Origin: Deltaproteobacteria bacterium
GTDB taxonomy: Bacteria; Desulfobacterota; Desulfobaccia; Desulfobaccales; 0-14-0-80-60-11
Direction: 5' to 3'
Assembly (NCBI GenBank): GCA_030018495.1
Contig: JASEFS010000023.1
Coordinates: 1 to 58,795 of the forward strand
Length of the DNA: 58,795 bases
Part shown: positions 307 through 7,190 of the stretch, in pieces
Layout: every line of letters begins with the position of its first letter
How positions within the stretch are numbered: the first letter of the stretch is position 1
Translations under genes and position numbers: made by a program
Notes under the pieces: generated by a model
The model's input: the letters and a program-made list of their open reading frames with translations, nothing else
What the model was told of the DNA's origin: nothing
The model's database searches: none

Positions 307-1362
307 TTAGGGGTTGTGAGAACATTGGGGGTCCGGGGCCAGGTAGTCCGGGTTCCCTTGAGCTCTGGACCAGGCATAGGCTATGGCCCGGCAGCCCCGG
401 CATTGAGCCCAGCGCGGGCATGAACCGCATTTGCCGCGGTAGCGGGTTTTGTCCCGCAGAGCTTCCAGCACCGGGGATGCGGCCCAAATTTCCCGCAGCC
501 GGTCTTGGCGCACGTTTCCCAGAGGCACCGGCAACCGCCGGCAGGGGAGCACGGTGCCGTCCGGGAGCAGAGTAAGTCCGGTAACCCCCGCGGCGCAGCC
601 TCCCCAGGGGAAAGTGTCATCTTCGGCGGAATCGGAGGCCGCAGCCGCATCCATCTGATTGGCCAGAGGATCGCCGCTGCCCACGTCCAGGTCTTTGACC
701 TCAAGGGCATAGATCTGCCGGCAAAATGCCGCAAAGTCCTCCGCTGACAACATTTGGTCCAGAAGCGCCTCCCCCCGGCCGGAGGGCACCAGCCGGGCAA
801 AGCCCAATTCCTGAACTCCCAGAGACTTCGAGAGAGGCACCAACTCCAGGAAAGCAGCGGCGTTGAGGCGGGAAAGGGTGGTGTTAAAGGTTACCCGGAC
901 GCCCGCAGCAAGGAGATTCTCGGCCCCGGCCAAAGCTGCCGCGAAGCTGCCCGGACCCCGGATGTCTTCATGAATCGGGGCGGGGCCCTCCAGGCTGATC
1001 TGCACCCCGTCAACTCCCAATGCCGCCAGCCTCTCGGCCCACGGCTTGGTTATGAGGGTGCCGTTTGACAGGAGGTAAACCGCGAAATGCCGCTTTTTCA
1101 TTTGCTCCAAAATGGCCGGCAGTTCCGGATGCAGCAGGGGCTCTCCTCCGGTGACGTGGAAGCTGGGTGAAAAGTCGATGCCGTAAGCATCCCGCCAGCC
1201 CGACAGCATAGCGGCAGACTCTTCGATAACAGCCAGGATTTCCGGGAAAGACAATTCCCGGCCGCGTGGCGCGGCTTCCTGATAACAATGGGCGCACCGG
1301 AGATTGCAGCGCTCCGTAAGATGCCACTGGATAAAAAACTCGTAGCCTTTGATGACCGGCAT
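307..1362 (-). CDS. Radical SAM/SPASM domain enzyme, probable peptide maturase
   Basis: A 351-residue radical SAM enzyme. The N-terminal half holds the AdoMet cluster motif CX3CX2C (Cys19, Cys23, Cys26) and the GGEP motif near 72-75. The C-terminal SPASM region carries seven more cysteines (256, 274, 312, 315, 321, 324, 347), enough for two auxiliary [4Fe-4S] clusters. Proteins with this architecture mostly modify ribosomal peptides (thioether or carbon-carbon crosslinks, oxidations) or small cofactors. About 174 bases upstream on the same strand is a 33-codon gene with an excellent ribosome binding site, a natural candidate substrate. No peptidase, exporter or PqqD-like recognition gene is seen next to it. 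It could instead be an AhbC/NirJ-like heme enzyme, but no heme genes are nearby. The radical SAM/SPASM class is certain; the substrate is inferred. Confidence 0.88.
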   Translation of the reverse strand: MPVIKGYEFFIQWHLTERCNLRCAHCYQEAAPRGRELSFPEILAVIEESAAMLSGWRDAYGIDFSPSFHVTGGEPLLHPELPAILEQMKKRHFAVYLLSNGTLITKPWAERLAALGVDGVQISLEGPAPIHEDIRGPGSFAAALAGAENLLAAGVRVTFNTTLSRLNAAAFLELVPLSKSLGVQELGFARLVPSGRGEALLDQMLSAEDFAAFCRQIYALEVKDLDVGSGDPLANQMDAAAASDSAEDDTFPWGGCAAGVTGLTLLPDGTVLPCRRLPVPLGNVRQDRLREIWAASPVLEALRDKTRYRGKCGSCPRWAQCRGCRAIAYAWSRAQGNPDYLAPDPQCSHNP

Positions 1363-1439
1363 ATAAAAAAGGCTTTCCCGGAGTTTCGGCCTAAAGCCGC
1401 GAGCTCCGGCCGGGAGTGATCTTAATAGGATGGCAGGTC

Positions 1440-1488
1440 ACACCGGCAAGGGCAGGCGCCACGAGGGGACGATGGCCCCTGCCGGTGT
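1440..1488 (-). promoter_or_regulatory. Stem-loop in the spacer between the small peptide and radical SAM genes
   Basis: Arms ACACCGGCA (1440-1448) and TGCCGGTGT (1480-1488) pair perfectly over 9 bp. Pairing extends inward by GGG/CCC if one A is bulged. There is no T-run after the stem, so it is not a classic terminator. It could attenuate read-through or protect the upstream peptide transcript. The function is inferred from position only. Confidence 0.5.
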
Positions 1489-1500
1489 AAACTGCTTGAG

Positions 1501-1517
1501 GTTGCCGAACCGGCAAC
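1501..1517 (-). promoter_or_regulatory. Short stem-loop just after the small peptide gene
   Basis: GTTGCCG (1501-1507) and CGGCAAC (1511-1517) form a perfect 7-bp stem with a 3-base loop. It lies about 20 bases downstream of the stop codon of the 33-codon gene on the minus strand. No T-run follows. With the second stem at 1440-1488 it makes a structured spacer before the radical SAM gene. Confidence 0.45.
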
Positions 1518-1536
1518 GCTACTTCTTTCACTTCTT

Positions 1537-1638
1537 TCAGGAACGGCATCCCTTGCCGGGAGATGTCAGCAGCTTTTTGACATTACCCCAGAAGGCAGCC
1601 TCCTTGGCCAGGGCCTCTTTACTGAGCGCCTGCTTCAT
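1537..1638 (-). CDS. 33-residue peptide, candidate substrate of the radical SAM enzyme
   Basis: A small open frame read on the minus strand from ATG at 1638 to TGA at 1537. It is preceded by an essentially perfect Shine-Dalgarno sequence (AAAGGAGGTGA, about 6 bases before the ATG), which is much stronger than at most genes here. The peptide starts MKQALSKEALAKEAAFWGNV and ends in a basic Gly/Lys tail, SPGKGCRS. The N-terminal part is Ala/Lys/Glu-rich and looks like a helical leader. The rest has one Phe-Trp pair (16-17), a Trp-Gly-Asn triplet (17-19) and a single Cys (31), residues that radical SAM maturases commonly modify. I do not recognise the family. That it is translated is well supported by the ribosome binding site; that it is a RiPP precursor is inferred from the neighbouring SPASM enzyme. 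Confidence 0.65.
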   Translation of the reverse strand: MKQALSKEALAKEAAFWGNVKKLLTSPGKGCRS

Positions 1639-1797
1639 CCCGTCTCACCTCCTTTCATCTGAATAGGACCAGTAATAACATGCGCGGGCTGCTTCCTCAA
1701 CATTTCAGCAATACTTTGGCCACGCCGTTTTTTCTTGTCAAACGTTTCATAAGCCCGGGGGGCCCTCCTCCAGTTTCATAAATGAGCTTCTTTGGAA

Positions 1798-1918: not shown

Positions 1919-2635
1919 TCAGACCCCCAGATAAGCCTCCCGCACCTGGGGGTGGTCCTGCAAGGTGCGGCTGGGGCCGGCGAGCACGATCCGGCCGGTT
2001 TCCAGAATGTAGGCTTGATGGGCGATCTCCAGGGCCAGGCGGGCGTTTTGCTCCACCAGCAGGATGGTGGCCCCGGCTTTGTTGAGGCGCCGGATCACCC
2101 GGAAAATCTCCCGGACCAGCATGGGGGCCAAGCCCATGGAGGGCTCATCCAGCAGGAGCAGCCGGGCCCGGCTCATCAAGGCCCGGCCCACGGCCAGCAT
2201 CTGCTGCTCGCCGCCGGAGAGGGTGTTGCCCCATTGGCGGCGGCGTTCGGCCAGGCGGGGGAACAGCCTGAAGACCTCTTCCAGGTCCGCCTCGATTTGA
2301 GCATCCCGGCGGGCGTAGGCCGCCAGGCGCAGGTTTTCCAGGACGGTGAGGTTGCCGAAAATGCCCCGGCCTTCCGGGACGTGGGCGATGCCCGCCTGCG
2401 TGCGCCGGTGGGCCGGAAGGCTGAGGAGGTCCTGCCCGGCAAAGAGAACGGTTCCCTGGGACACCGGCAGCAAACCGGAAAGAGCCCGCAAAATGGTGGA
2501 CTTGCCCGCGCCGTTGGCCCCGATGAGGGTGACGATGTCGCCTTCCTGCACCGCAAAAGACACCCCGCGCACCGCGGCGATGCGGTCGTAGGAAATCCAG
2601 AGATCGTCTACGGTCAGTAGTGGTTGTGATGTCAT
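1919..2635 (-). CDS. livF: Branched-chain amino acid-type ABC transporter, ATPase LivF
   Basis: A 238-residue ATP-binding cassette protein, the second ATPase of a Liv/HAAT importer. It powers uptake across the cytoplasmic membrane with LivG, LivH and LivM. Walker A is at 39-46 (GANGAGKS), the signature LSGGE at 139-143 and Walker B with DEP near 159-165. The length and the AHVPEGR element (84-90) are typical of LivF. It is the last gene of the livK-H-M-G-F series. A 205-base spacer full of short palindromes separates it from livG, so it may be expressed less strongly than its partners. The transported substrate (leucine/isoleucine/valine, amides or similar) cannot be read from the ATPase. Confidence 0.95.
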   Translation of the reverse strand: MTSQPLLTVDDLWISYDRIAAVRGVSFAVQEGDIVTLIGANGAGKSTILRALSGLLPVSQGTVLFAGQDLLSLPAHRRTQAGIAHVPEGRGIFGNLTVLENLRLAAYARRDAQIEADLEEVFRLFPRLAERRRQWGNTLSGGEQQMLAVGRALMSRARLLLLDEPSMGLAPMLVREIFRVIRRLNKAGATILLVEQNARLALEIAHQAYILETGRIVLAGPSRTLQDHPQVREAYLGV

Positions 2636-2689
2636 TGGAATTATGAGCGCGTCACACTTGATTTACAAATTTTGTTTTTATGGGGGGTA

Positions 2690-2776
2690 GGGGGTCAGGG
2701 GTCATAAACCCCTGCCCCCAACCCCGAATTGGGAGCACAGGCTTCCAGCCTGTGCCTCACAGGCAAGATGCCTGTG
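2690..2776. repeat. Cluster of short palindromes (ACAGGC..GCCTGT family)
   Basis: Between livF and livG lie two palindromes: GCACAGGCT/AGCCTGTGC (2735-2743, 2747-2755) and CACAGGCA/TGCCTGTG (2758-2765, 2769-2776). They follow a GGGGTCAGGGGTCA run. The same theme recurs at 12311-12332, 18690-18710 and 47481-47497. They look like dispersed intergenic repeats rather than terminators, since no T-run follows. Confidence 0.7.
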
Positions 2777-2840
2777 TTCCCGAATAATCCGGCGGGCATA
2801 GGCCCATCCCACCGGAAGCCACATGTATCTCAGCCTCCGA

Positions 2841-3620
2841 TTACTCGGCCAAAGCGCCGTCTTTGCCCAGATATGCCTCCAGCACCGCGGGGTCGTGCTG
2901 GACCTCCCGGGGCGGCCCCGAGGCGATGGTCATGCCGAAATCCAGCACCTTGACCCGCTGGCACAGGTCCATAACCACCCGCATCTGGTGCTCGATGAGG
3001 ATGATGGTGAGGCCGAAGTCTCTTTGCATGTCCCTGATAAGTTGGATCAGGGCCTGGCTTTCCGCGTCGTTCATGCCCGCCGCGGGCTCATCCAGAAGCA
3101 AAAGGCGCGGGCCGCTGATCAGGGCCCGGGCCATCTCAACCCGGCGCTGCTCCCCGTAGGGGAGGTGGCGCGCCACGGTGTCGGCGTAGCGGGTTAGGTT
3201 GAAGCGCTCCAAAAGCTCATAGGCCTGCCGCAGCCAGGCTTGTTCCTCCCGGCGAAAGCCCCGGCTGTGCAGGAGGGCCTGCCAGATGTTGTAGCCATGG
3301 CGGGCAAAGCCGCCCAGGCGCACGTTGTCCAGTACGCTCAGATCTTTGAAAAGCCGGATGTTCTGAAAGGTCCGGGCGATGCCCGCGGCGGTGATGCGAT
3401 AGCTGGGCCAGCGGGTGATGTCTTGCCCCTCAAAGAAAATGCGGCCCTGAGAAATGCGGAAGACCCCGGTGATCAAATTGAAGATGGTGGTTTTGCCCGC
3501 GCCGTTGGGACCGATGAGGCCCACCAGTTCGCCCGGCTCCACGGTAAGGGAAAAATCAGCCACCGCACACAGGCCGTCGAAGTGGTGCGTCAGTTCTTCA
3601 ATACTGAGCATGGCGGCCAT
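2841..3620 (-). CDS. livG: Branched-chain amino acid-type ABC transporter, ATPase LivG
   Basis: A 259-residue ABC ATPase. The start at 3620 (residues MAAMLSIEEL) is chosen because GGAGGT lies 9 bases upstream, and because it removes an overlap of the longer frame with livM. The ribosome binding site is next to the livM stop codon, which suggests translational coupling. Walker A is GPNGAGKT near residue 38 and Walker B LLLLDEP near 165. The region around YGEQRRVE replaces the usual LSGGQ signature, as is normal for LivG. The long insert between Walker A and signature (about 120 residues, with the AGIARTFQN motif) separates LivG from LivF. It works with LivF, LivH and LivM in the inner membrane importer. 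Confidence 0.95.
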   Translation of the reverse strand: MAAMLSIEELTHHFDGLCAVADFSLTVEPGELVGLIGPNGAGKTTIFNLITGVFRISQGRIFFEGQDITRWPSYRITAAGIARTFQNIRLFKDLSVLDNVRLGGFARHGYNIWQALLHSRGFRREEQAWLRQAYELLERFNLTRYADTVARHLPYGEQRRVEMARALISGPRLLLLDEPAAGMNDAESQALIQLIRDMQRDFGLTIILIEHQMRVVMDLCQRVKVLDFGMTIASGPPREVQHDPAVLEAYLGKDGALAE

Positions 3621-3624
3621 GGGT

Positions 3625-4590
3625 TTATGACCTCCGGCTTCCTGCCCCAAAACGCGGGATAAACCACTTCGACTCCTTTAAACCCATAATGCCCCGGGGC
3701 CGGAAGATCATGAGCAGGACCAGCAGAAGCGGCCCCACCACCCAGCGCCACAGGCCGAGCGGCCGGAGCAGCTCCAGCAGCAGGGTGAAAATCGTCGCCC
3801 CCAGGAGCGAGCCCGTCAGGGAGCCGATGCCCCCGAGATAGACCATGACCAGCATGTCCGTGGATTTCAGAATGGAAAAGCTCCGGGGGTTGATGAATTG
3901 CAACAGGTGGGCGAACAGCCCGCCGGCCACCCCGGTGAAAAACGCGGAAATGAGAAATGCGTACATCTTGATTTTGCGTGTGTCCACGGAGGTGAGATTG
4001 GCGGCCACCTCATCCTCGCGAATGGCCATGAGCCCCCGGCCGAAATTGGAATACACCAGGTTGCGGCACAAATAAAGGGTGAGCAGCACCCAGGCCGTCA
4101 CCCAGGGCAGCGACGTCAGGCGGGGCATGCCCAGAAAGCCCCGGGGACCGCCCAGAATCTCCAGGTTTTCCAGGACGCTTTTGACAATCATGTTAAAGGC
4201 CAGGGTGACGATGGCCAGGTAGTCCCCCCGGGTGCGGAAGGAAGGGAAGGCCACCACCAAGCCGGTGGCCGCGGCGGCCAGGCCGCCGGCCACCAGCACC
4301 GCCGGAAAGGCCCAGAAGGACAGGGCCGGAGGGATCACCCACACCGTGAGGATGGAGGACATGTAGGCGCCTACGGCCATGAAGCCGGCGTGGCCCACCG
4401 AGAACTCCCCCATGTAGCCGTTCACCAGGTTGAGGGCCAGGGTGAGTATCATGTTGATCCCCACGTACATGAGTATTTGCACTACGTACGGGTTGAGGAG
4501 GCCGGACTCCGGCAAGACCCAGGACAGGGCCAGGAGGAGGGTTATACTGCCCCAGGTGAGGTAACGTCTCTGCGGCATTACCGCTGCCAT
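3625..4590 (-). CDS. livM: Branched-chain amino acid-type ABC transporter permease LivM
   Basis: A 321-residue inner-membrane permease with about nine or ten hydrophobic segments. It has the conserved LivM features LALNLVNGYMGEFSVGHAGF near 55-75 and AGVAGGLFAHLLQFINPRSFS near 215-240, plus the GGIGSLTGSLLGA loop, the EAA-like contact for the ATPases. It pairs with LivH as a heterodimeric pore. The livG start lies just after its stop codon. Upstream, a 262-base element with inverted ends separates it from livH. Confidence 0.95.
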   Translation of the reverse strand: MAAVMPQRRYLTWGSITLLLALSWVLPESGLLNPYVVQILMYVGINMILTLALNLVNGYMGEFSVGHAGFMAVGAYMSSILTVWVIPPALSFWAFPAVLVAGGLAAAATGLVVAFPSFRTRGDYLAIVTLAFNMIVKSVLENLEILGGPRGFLGMPRLTSLPWVTAWVLLTLYLCRNLVYSNFGRGLMAIREDEVAANLTSVDTRKIKMYAFLISAFFTGVAGGLFAHLLQFINPRSFSILKSTDMLVMVYLGGIGSLTGSLLGATIFTLLLELLRPLGLWRWVVGPLLLVLLMIFRPRGIMGLKESKWFIPRFGAGSRRS

Positions 4591-4599
4591 AAAGAATTG

Positions 4600-4833
4600 G
4601 TGGTCAGTGGCCGGTGGCCGGTGGTCAGTAAAAAAGCCAATAATCAGAAATCAGTCAAAATTGATTATGTTGTCTTAAAATAGAAGTTTCCTTCTAAATA
4701 GGTTCTTCGTCCTCGATAAATGTAGCGCCGGCGCCCTCGCGGGCGATAGAACCGCCGGGTGCGGCAGTTCTACATTTTAGGAGCATTGGCATTTTTCCGG
4801 GAAATTCTGGTAATTAAACCGGCCACTGACCAC
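4600..4833. mobile_element. MITE-like element with 16-bp perfect inverted ends between livH and livM
   Basis: GTGGTCAGTGGCCGGT at 4600-4615 is repeated as its exact reverse complement at 4818-4833, framing about 202 bases without a gene. Further GGTCAGT copies extend both ends. The interior is AT-rich on the left, with a GC-rich palindromic block at 4721-4774. The position inside an operon and the inverted ends resemble a small non-autonomous element or a transcribed hairpin. No target-site duplication is evident and no transposase is present in the window. Confidence 0.5.
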
Positions 4834-4852
4834 TGATCACTGACCACTGCCC

Positions 4853-5764
4853 TTAAACCCGCTCAAACATGGGCCGGCCCAAGAGGCCGGTGGGCTTGAA
4901 GACCAGCAGCAGCAGGAGCAGGGAAAAGGCCACAAAATCGCGATACGTGGACGCGGGCAGCAGCACCGGCGTGAAGATTTCCACGAAGCCAAGAATATAG
5001 CCCCCCAGCATGGCGCCCCGGATATTGCCGATGCCCCCCACCACCGCGGCAATGAAGGCCCACCAGCCGATCCTGATGCCCATATAGGGATCAAGCACCG
5101 GATACGCCAGGCCATAGAGCAGGCCTCCCGCCGCGGCGATGGCCGAGCCCACCGCAAAGGTCAGGGAAATCACCCGGTCCACGGGCACCCCCATCAAAGG
5201 CACGATGGGCCGGTTGTAAGATATGGCGCGCATGGCCATGCCCAGCAGAGTGCGCCGGATCAACAGGTCTAAAAGAACCATCAGCAGCGCGGCCAGAAGA
5301 ATGATCAGGACTTGCAGCGGGGTCAAAGTAAGTCCGAAAATGTTCCAGGGCTGCATGGGAATGAGACCGGGGAAATGGCGGGGTTGCGGCCCCAACATGG
5401 CCAGGGTGAAATTTTCCAGAAACAACCCCACCCCCAGGGCCGTTATGACCGCGGACACGCGGGGGGCCTGGCGCAAGGGCCGGTAGGCCAGGCGCTCCAC
5501 CGTCACCCCCAGGAGCGCGGTAAGGAACATGCTGAAAAGCAAGGCCCCGACAAAAACAAAGGGCAAAGGCGCCTTGAACGGCAGCCCCAGGAGAAACACC
5601 GCCGCGGCCAGACTTAAGTACGCCCCCACCATGAAAATGTCGCCGTGCGCAAAGTTGATCATGGTGAGGATGCCATACACCATGGCATAACCCAACGCAA
5701 TAAGGGCATAAACGCTCCCCAGCTGCAAAGCGTTCAAGACATTCTGTCCCAATACCTGGAGCAT
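4853..5764 (-). CDS. livH: Branched-chain amino acid-type ABC transporter permease LivH
   Basis: A 303-residue permease with about eight membrane segments. The start at 5764 (MLQVLGQNVLNALQLGSVYAL) is an ATG with GGGGAGGAA 11 bases upstream; a longer GTG start at 5794 lacks such support. Conserved LivH signatures are IALGYAMVYGILTMINFAHGD near 27-47 and the GGIGNIRGAMLGGYILG loop near 253-269. It forms the channel with LivM. The gene follows livK by about 190 bases containing GGGGTCAGGGG-type repeats. Confidence 0.95.
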   Translation of the reverse strand: MLQVLGQNVLNALQLGSVYALIALGYAMVYGILTMINFAHGDIFMVGAYLSLAAAVFLLGLPFKAPLPFVFVGALLFSMFLTALLGVTVERLAYRPLRQAPRVSAVITALGVGLFLENFTLAMLGPQPRHFPGLIPMQPWNIFGLTLTPLQVLIILLAALLMVLLDLLIRRTLLGMAMRAISYNRPIVPLMGVPVDRVISLTFAVGSAIAAAGGLLYGLAYPVLDPYMGIRIGWWAFIAAVVGGIGNIRGAMLGGYILGFVEIFTPVLLPASTYRDFVAFSLLLLLLVFKPTGLLGRPMFERV

Positions 5765-5955
5765 AGAGGTGGAAGTTCCTCCCCTATCCCTCACATCCCC
5801 ATCCCACCACGTTTATTCAGGGGCCAGGGTTTATGTCAGGGGTCAGGGGCCGGGGGCCGGGGGAAAAAGACAACTTTAACCGACTCCTGGTCCCTAATCC
5901 CTGTTAAAAGGGTTGGGAGGAATGGCGTTTGTCCGGCCCTCCCCCCGAAAAAATT

Positions 5956-7101
5956 TTACGGTTTCACGCTGGCGTGGTAGGCGAATTTGCCGTCTTTGAT
6001 CTGGAGGATAACCGCGCTTTTAATGGGGTCGCCGGTGCCCTTGAACTGCATGTTGCCGGTCACGCCTTCGAATTCCTGAATCGTGGCCAAAGCGTCCCGG
6101 ACTTTCCGGCGGTCCGGGGCGCCGGCCTTGGTGATGGCGGCGATAAGCAGGTTGCCGGCGTCATAGGTCAGAGCCGCCACATCGTCAGGCTTTTGGCCGT
6201 ATTTGGCCTCATAGTCCGTGATAAACTTCTGGGCCTTTTCAGTGGCGATATCCTGGGCATAATGGGTGCTGAAGAAGCAGCCTTCCAAATCCTTGCCGCC
6301 CAGGCGGAGAAGTTCTTCGCTGCCCCAGGAGTCGGAGCCGATAATGGCGCTGGTGATTCCCAACCGTCGGGCCTGCTGCGCCTGGAGGGGGACTTCATTA
6401 TAGTAGTTGGGGAGGAAGAGCACGTCCGGATCAGCCCCCTTTATCTTGGTGAGCTGGGCGGAGAAGTCCATGTCTCCCTTGGTATAGGATTCAAAGGCCA
6501 CTACTTTGCCGCCGTTTTCTTCGAAGAATTTTTTAAAGAATTCGGCGATGCCCTTGTTGTATTCGGAAGCCACGTCATAAAGCACCGCCGCGGTCTGGGC
6601 CTTGAGATTGGCCCGGGCGAACTTGGCCATGACCTGGCCCTGGAAGTCGTCGATGAAGCAGGCCCGGAAGACGTACTTCTTGCCTTCGGTGGTTTTGGGG
6701 TTGGTGGACCAGGGGCTTACCATGATGACCCCGGCATCTTCACAGATCCGGGCCGCGGGGATGGCGTTGCCCGAGGCGTTGGGGCCGACGATGGCCAGGA
6801 CGTTATTCTGGGTGATGAGCTTTTGGGCCGCGGCCGCGGCGGATTCGGCCTTGTCTTCATTGTCTTCCACAAAAAGGGTCACTTTCCAGGCTTTGTCGCC
6901 GAGCTTCAGGCCGCCGCTCTGATTTATCTGGGCCGCCAGAAGTTCAGCGGCATTTTTGCAGGAAGCCCCTACGGCGGGCTTGCTGCCCGTGAGTTCGGCG
7001 TTGACTCCCAGCCGGATATCAGTGGCCTCTTTCTTAGCGCAGGCTCCTGAAAAAAAGAAAAGCATCACTGCAACAAATGCAGCCCATCTTGGCAAGCTCA
7101 T
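5956..7101 (-). CDS. livK: Liv-type ABC transporter substrate-binding lipoprotein
   Basis: A 381-residue periplasmic binding protein of the Leu/Ile/Val-binding (type 1) family. The start at 7101 is chosen because AAAGGAGA sits 5-9 bases upstream and it leaves a clean signal peptide. Residues 1-21 end in the lipobox FSGAC, so the protein should be a lipoprotein. The mature part starts with IRLGVNAELTGSKPAVG, and the middle has AIVGPNASGNAIPAA, the usual ligand-pocket segments. It is the first and probably most abundant product of the livK-H-M-G-F unit. The ligand is not determined; related proteins bind branched-chain amino acids, amides, urea or aromatic acids. An inverted repeat and a promoter lie upstream. 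Confidence 0.93.
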   Translation of the reverse strand: MSLPRWAAFVAVMLFFFSGACAKKEATDIRLGVNAELTGSKPAVGASCKNAAELLAAQINQSGGLKLGDKAWKVTLFVEDNEDKAESAAAAAQKLITQNNVLAIVGPNASGNAIPAARICEDAGVIMVSPWSTNPKTTEGKKYVFRACFIDDFQGQVMAKFARANLKAQTAAVLYDVASEYNKGIAEFFKKFFEENGGKVVAFESYTKGDMDFSAQLTKIKGADPDVLFLPNYYNEVPLQAQQARRLGITSAIIGSDSWGSEELLRLGGKDLEGCFFSTHYAQDIATEKAQKFITDYEAKYGQKPDDVAALTYDAGNLLIAAITKAGAPDRRKVRDALATIQEFEGVTGNMQFKGTGDPIKSAVILQIKDGKFAYHASVKP

Positions 7102-7160
7102 GGTTTCTCCTTTCTCGGCAGGCTCCCCCGCCGCCTGGAAAAAGCTCTCAAAGCGTTTGC

Positions 7161-7190
7161 ACGATATCAAAAAGGCACGGGAGACGTCAA
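7161..7190 (-). promoter_or_regulatory. Predicted sigma70 promoter of the liv operon
   Basis: On the minus strand, TTGACG (7190-7185) is followed after 18 bases by TATCGT (7166-7161). It lies about 60 bases before the livK start. The -35 element is inside the inverted repeat at 7183-7203, so binding there would block or modify access by RNA polymerase. Confidence 0.5.

Follow-up and report, generated by a model that had tools for sequence, protein, structure and literature searches.

The locus raises the question of what the small reading frame in front of a radical SAM/SPASM gene encodes, and whether its product is the substrate of that enzyme. Both genes lie in the window, i.e. the whole stretch of 58,795 nucleotides that was analysed, from contig JASEFS010000023.1 of a Deltaproteobacteria bacterium. 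A preliminary description had proposed a 33-codon frame with a strong Shine-Dalgarno sequence next to a radical SAM/SPASM gene on the same strand, and all of these elements were found in place (Table 1), as were a Phe-Trp pair and a single Cys in the peptide.

Table 1. Features of the peptide/radical SAM cassette, in window coordinates.
Feature	Position	Strand	Basis or remark
Radical SAM/SPASM enzyme gene, 351 aa	307..1362	minus	Pfam Radical_SAM 4.7e-24, SPASM 3.7e-11
Very stable hairpin between peptide and radical SAM genes	1433..1495	minus	-42.8 kcal/mol, z -6.8
Predicted bacterial SECIS hairpin GUUGCCGGUUCGGCAAC	1501..1517	minus	just past the stop codon; covariation, fdhF comparison, published model
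Predicted selenopeptide gene, 39 codons plus TAG (1521-1519)	1519..1638	minus	translation with TGA=U
Second predicted Sec codon, UGA (codon 37)	1528..1530	minus	9 nt past the first UGA in every locus
First predicted Sec codon, UGA (codon 34)	1537..1539	minus	TGC (Cys) in G278 and one G215 copy
Candidate 33-codon frame, first part of the selenopeptide gene	1537-1638	minus	standard-code ORF
Shine-Dalgarno sequence AAGGAGGTGA of the peptide gene	1645..1654	minus	read from the sequence

The UGA codons of the peptide gene

The stop codon of the 33-codon frame is a UGA, and the frame continues behind it as AAG AAG UGA AAG AAG UAG. Translated with TGA as selenocysteine (U), the product would read MKQALSKEALAKEAAFWGNVKKLLTSPGKGCRS-U-KK-U-KK. 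The length of 33 residues was not upheld: across the family described below, the TGA that closes this frame and another TGA three codons behind it are both conserved in frame. Judged from this comparison, both in-frame UGA codons almost certainly specify selenocysteine, and the predicted true peptide is 39 aa long, not 33 aa. Both Sec and the SECIS hairpin had been overlooked before because UGA was taken as a stop.

A family of homologous peptides

To define the family, radical SAM searches were carried out in 99 related genomes, with a profile against 395 genomes of the phylum and in a separate contig collection, so that the whole-genome collections covered one phylum; the contig collection added one further member, from a Desulfobulbaceae MAG. 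A homologous peptide ending in C-x-x-U-K-x-U-K was present 5' of every radical SAM orthologue with enough upstream DNA. The profile of the peptide, run independently of the enzyme, was matched by 18 copies, spread over 17 of 390 genomes searched in the phylum. Fifteen of them have TGA at both sites, two have Cys at the first site and TGA at the second, and one has TGA followed by TAA. Because the genomes with this peptide and those with the orthologous radical SAM gene are the same, the peptide frame is more than a chance occurrence. Thus, the profile search that had been proposed bore out the pairing: homologous peptides adjoin the radical SAM genes, co-occurrence is strict across the phylum, and a conserved small frame, whose absence would have spoken against the cassette, was present wherever the DNA sufficed. 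Additionally, a DNA pattern consisting of two UGAs and a hairpin, in which the enzyme was ignored, recovered these loci again together with three additional places, with 27 matches including chance hits against one in the reversed control.

Over all searches, 21 loci were collected in 20 genomes, the two overlapping contig ends of G256 being counted once. Eighteen loci have UGA at both sites, two have Cys and UGA (G278 and one G215 copy) and one has UGA and UAA (the other G215 copy); the UGA-UGA spacing is 9 nt in 18 of the 21. Invariant among the 19 complete peptides are E13, W17, C31, K35, K38, Sec/Cys34 and Sec37. The suspected importance of the C-terminal Cys therefore survives, with C31 invariant, and is enlarged to a Cys-Sec-Sec region. 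The Lys that follows position 34 is retained where this position is Cys, and is therefore not merely a readthrough context. No all-Cys form of the peptide was found in the 390 genomes. Substitutions counted by codon position in the short peptide tail were too few to be informative. GGAGGTG-type Shine-Dalgarno sites also precede most of the homologous peptide genes.

In the case of G215, two copies of the cassette are present (L042 and L047), one with CxxCxxU and one with CxxU-KS-stop, in which UAA replaces the second UGA; as a naturally occurring pair, they bear on which Sec is required. In the G215/G278 group (L043, L047 and also L042), the peptide gene's UGA stop and the radical SAM gene's ATG overlap (ATGA), and the SECIS hairpin lies within the first radical SAM codons, which encode MIAGSAI.

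Searches of the peptide family against Pfam and PHROGs found no family, and no NCBIfam model fits it, with weak, chance-level matches for only a few relatives (best E 0.02).

SECIS hairpin and selenocysteine machinery

A hairpin of the form GUUGC(N)GG(U)..GCAAC was found 3' of the stop codon in every locus checked. In the window its apical loop lies 17 nt past the second UGA and 26 nt past the first, and across loci about 16-21 nt and 25-30 nt, respectively (in G137 the automatic pick of the script was a different hairpin, at 22/31 nt). The published bacterial SECIS model places the loop 16-37 nt from the UGA (PMC13188914), and its features of stem, loop and distance were found for both UGAs. 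Hairpin energies ranged from -7.3 to -11.7 kcal/mol, a few being marginal. The stem showed covariation at two of six pairs, with 100% of alignment cells paired. In G142 the entire stem is exchanged for another (GCCGCC-AGGU-GGCGGC), with place and distance unchanged, and the hairpin GUUGCAGGUCUGCAAC of G122 and G244 is nearly identical to the E. coli fdhF hairpin GGUUGCAGGUCUGCACC. The folding free energy of the SECIS segment alone was unremarkable (z-score -0.2), so the argument rests on comparison and not on fold energy. An Rfam scan of the region gave nothing above chance and no match to a SECIS family.

The genome of the window contains tRNA-Sec, SelA and SelB. SelB was found in 16 of the 18 carrier genomes tested and not in G036 and G137, both of which are incomplete assemblies. 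On the strength of the conserved UGAs, the SECIS hairpin (fdhF-like in G122 and G244) and the presence of tRNA-Sec, SelA and SelB in the genome, selenocysteine decoding of the peptide appears near certain.

The radical SAM/SPASM enzyme

The radical SAM CxxxCxxC motif and the seven SPASM cysteines are conserved in the enzyme; compared with the rest of the family, the G244 orthologue (L070) appears to contain an inserted stretch of about 35 residues. The AlphaFold model (mean pLDDT 85.6) matches SuiB, SkfB, ChlB, anSME and CteB with Z values of 25-28. The best NCBIfam matches were AhbD, ACGX and NirJ2 with 159-169 bits and GeoRSP with 135; TIGR04082 aligned with 138 bits. In a tree of 36 rows, which took in only part of the related SPASM families, the radical SAM enzymes of the cassettes form one group (94/85), apart from SbtM (100/100) and from the genome's own paralogues.

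No RRE domain was detected in the enzyme, the predicted model starting directly with the barrel, and a search for a PqqD homologue (PF05402) gave no match anywhere in the genome of the window. Some radical SAM enzymes of RiPP pathways have no leader recognition domain, and for this reason its absence does not exclude a RiPP maturase.

Arrangement of the locus

The radical SAM gene lies 3' of the peptide gene in all 21 loci, one of which is cut by a contig end, and separate searches with peptide and enzyme return the same genomes. Distances between peptides correlate with those between enzymes (Mantel r 0.71, reached in 0 of 5000 permutations), a value to which shared descent contributes. Taken together, the proposal of a RiPP-type pair of peptide and radical SAM/SPASM enzyme is supported by strict co-occurrence, co-divergence and the maturase fold; the W-x-N cyclophane site put forward with it lacks conservation. 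Trp itself is invariant, and Asn occupies position W+2 in only 3 of the 19 complete peptides; an aromatic-X-Asn cyclophane (triceptide-type) RiPP was rejected on this ground. As far as can be told from sequences, it is likely that the enzyme and the peptide are an enzyme-substrate pair.

In 22 neighbourhoods, no conserved neighbours were found beyond the peptide and radical SAM genes. The earlier remark that exporter and peptidase are missing thus applies to the conserved neighbours of 22 loci. In the genome of the window itself, the downstream side is out of view, since the window begins where the contig does, 306 nt past the radical SAM gene, and downstream partners would be unseen. Directly upstream of the cassette, on the same strand, is a complete branched-chain amino-acid ABC transporter operon (1919-7170, minus strand; LivF, LivG, LivM, LivH and LivK-like), which is not conserved beside other cassettes.

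The very stable hairpin between the two genes is probably an attenuator or a processing site. Where the gap is long, a comparable intergenic hairpin of different sequence, often with a U-run, is present in most homologous loci. Such attenuator-like hairpins are consistent with the production of more peptide than enzyme.

Proposed mechanism

We consider it quite probable that the two genes encode a small selenopeptide and a radical SAM/SPASM enzyme that modifies it. Both UGAs would be read as Sec through SelB and the single SECIS after the stop codon, a step strongly supported by comparison, to give a peptide of about 40 aa that would end in Cys-x-x-Sec-Lys-x-Sec-Lys. The helical N-terminal half (KEAAFW..KK) may serve as a leader that is docked directly by the enzyme, because an RRE is neither fused to the enzyme nor encoded beside it. 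Using a 5'-deoxyadenosyl radical together with a pair of auxiliary Fe-S clusters, the enzyme would then oxidise the Cys/Sec region.

Selenoether/thioether crosslinks (Se-C or S-C) would be our first choice for the chemistry, with a probability that comes close to even. The second choice, an SbtM-type (seleno)oxazole, is unlikely, and we hold it equally unlikely that the peptide itself is not modified; another modification is improbable. All of these weights are rough. With neither an exporter nor a protease conserved in the neighbourhood, the product would have an intracellular role, probably in redox reactions or metal binding. A more far-reaching reading, which we hold somewhat less likely than not, is a new RiPP class in which a Cys and two Sec, served by one SECIS, would be locked by the dedicated SPASM enzyme in selenoether/thioether or oxazole-type rings to yield an intracellular selenium cofactor-like peptide.

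Alternative explanations

Under the standard code the 33-aa frame follows directly. On this reading, translation would end at the first UGA, the peptide would have 33 aa and a single Cys, and the hairpin would be a terminator or mRNA stabiliser. We give this hardly any credence: none of the 21 loci has TAA or TAG at codon 34, two of them have Cys there, the second UGA, both Lys codons and the spacing are all kept, the hairpin has the form and spacing of a SECIS and no U-run on the minus strand, and the Sec machinery is present in the genome. A second alternative is that only one UGA is efficiently decoded, the second mostly acting as a stop (CxxU-Kx), or that a selenium-dependent, regulated mixture is made. 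That one SECIS should serve two UGAs, at distances of 17 and 26 nt, is unusual and a point against dual decoding; moreover, UAA at the second site in a G215 copy and Cys at the first in two loci show that either Sec alone can occur. However, the distances of both UGAs fit the published SECIS range, and the second UGA and the following Lys are kept in 20 of the 21 loci, so we leave this variant only a slight chance and retain decoding of both UGAs.

The role of the peptide can also be construed differently. It could be a free-standing mini-selenoprotein, a redox carrier or metal ligand that helps the enzyme, for instance as its reductant or metallochaperone, with the radical SAM protein acting on another substrate. 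The resemblance of CxxUxxU to redox or metal-binding motifs and the occurrence of UxxU in other selenoproteins speak for it; the similarity of the enzyme model to peptide maturases, the two-gene unit with no third conserved gene and the leader-like N-terminal half with its invariant E and W argue against it, and it seems doubtful to us. We regard it as highly improbable that the cassette belongs, as a divergent form, to the SbtA/SbtM thio(seleno)oxazole systems. Both share the general plan of a Sec peptide and a SPASM radical SAM enzyme, TIGR04082 aligns, and SbtM is the neighbouring group in the small tree. Nevertheless, 138 bits stand against a cut-off of 350, the cassette enzyme lacks the N-terminal ~200 residues of SbtM, and SbtA peptides share no motif with the selenopeptide. 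True SbtM coexists with the cassette in G073, G137, G165, G215 and G263, and is absent from the genome of the window. Membership in SbtA/SbtM was accordingly rejected, the peptide being unrelated, the enzyme far below the cut-off and both systems coexisting in at least five genomes.

Significance

A 2026 inventory holds 119 prokaryotic selenoprotein families, among which SbtA ('selenobacteriocin') is the sole Sec peptide/RiPP (PMC13188914). The selenopeptide matched none of these families, and a literature search found no description of CxxUxxU or of a selenobiotic. Judged from NCBIfam and this one inventory, the evidence points to modified, selenium-containing peptides of a family not yet described, of the Sec-containing radical SAM RiPP kind. 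It would be the second Sec RiPP family, unrelated to SbtA, with two Sec in a 40-residue peptide and one SECIS. With a two-gene cassette, the selenium chemistry of radical SAM enzymes becomes testable. The case also illustrates how standard gene-calling software shortens or overlooks genes of this kind.

Comparison with known systems

Two Sec three residues apart and decoding by a bacterial SECIS are shared with the UxxU selenoproteins, for example Prx-like PF00578, metal-binding NF041115 and FmdB-like TIGR02605 (PMC13188914). Those are domain proteins, unlike the peptide of about 40 aa with its own radical SAM enzyme, and none of their models matches it. The best NCBIfam matches link the enzyme to SPASM enzymes of the AhbD heme b synthase, ACGX, NirJ2 and GeoRSP types, yet its scores are far below their cut-offs of 400-500 bits, and the genome of the window has a separate AhbD at 515 bits.

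With SkfB and CteB (sactipeptide/ranthipeptide-type), SuiB, ChlB and PqqE, the cassette shares a radical SAM core with a seven-Cys SPASM domain and a small upstream precursor, and SkfB, CteB and other RiPP SPASM enzymes are the nearest structures to the predicted model. In contrast to those maturase systems, no RRE was detected, the precursor would contain two Sec, and no exporter, protease or immunity gene is conserved. The suggested link to sactipeptides/ranthipeptides comes only from the fold similarity of the model to SkfB and CteB.

The closest known system is SbtA/SbtM (TIGR04081/TIGR04082), a thio(seleno)oxazole RiPP system according to Lewis et al. 2021 as cited in PMC11002830. SbtA is longer, with a KKLLAG leader and repeated S[GS]UGG, whereas the selenopeptide has a single C-terminal CxxUKxUK, and SbtM, at about 516 aa, is larger than the cassette enzyme. 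In L088-L099, the SbtA precursors 5' of SbtM are multi-Sec, with at least two SGUGG/SSUGG/SSUSG units; L098 reaches four. The SbtA/SbtM system and the cassette are found in one and the same phylum and combine a short UGA-containing precursor and a SECIS beside a SPASM radical SAM gene, and in both Sec is the likely site of modification.
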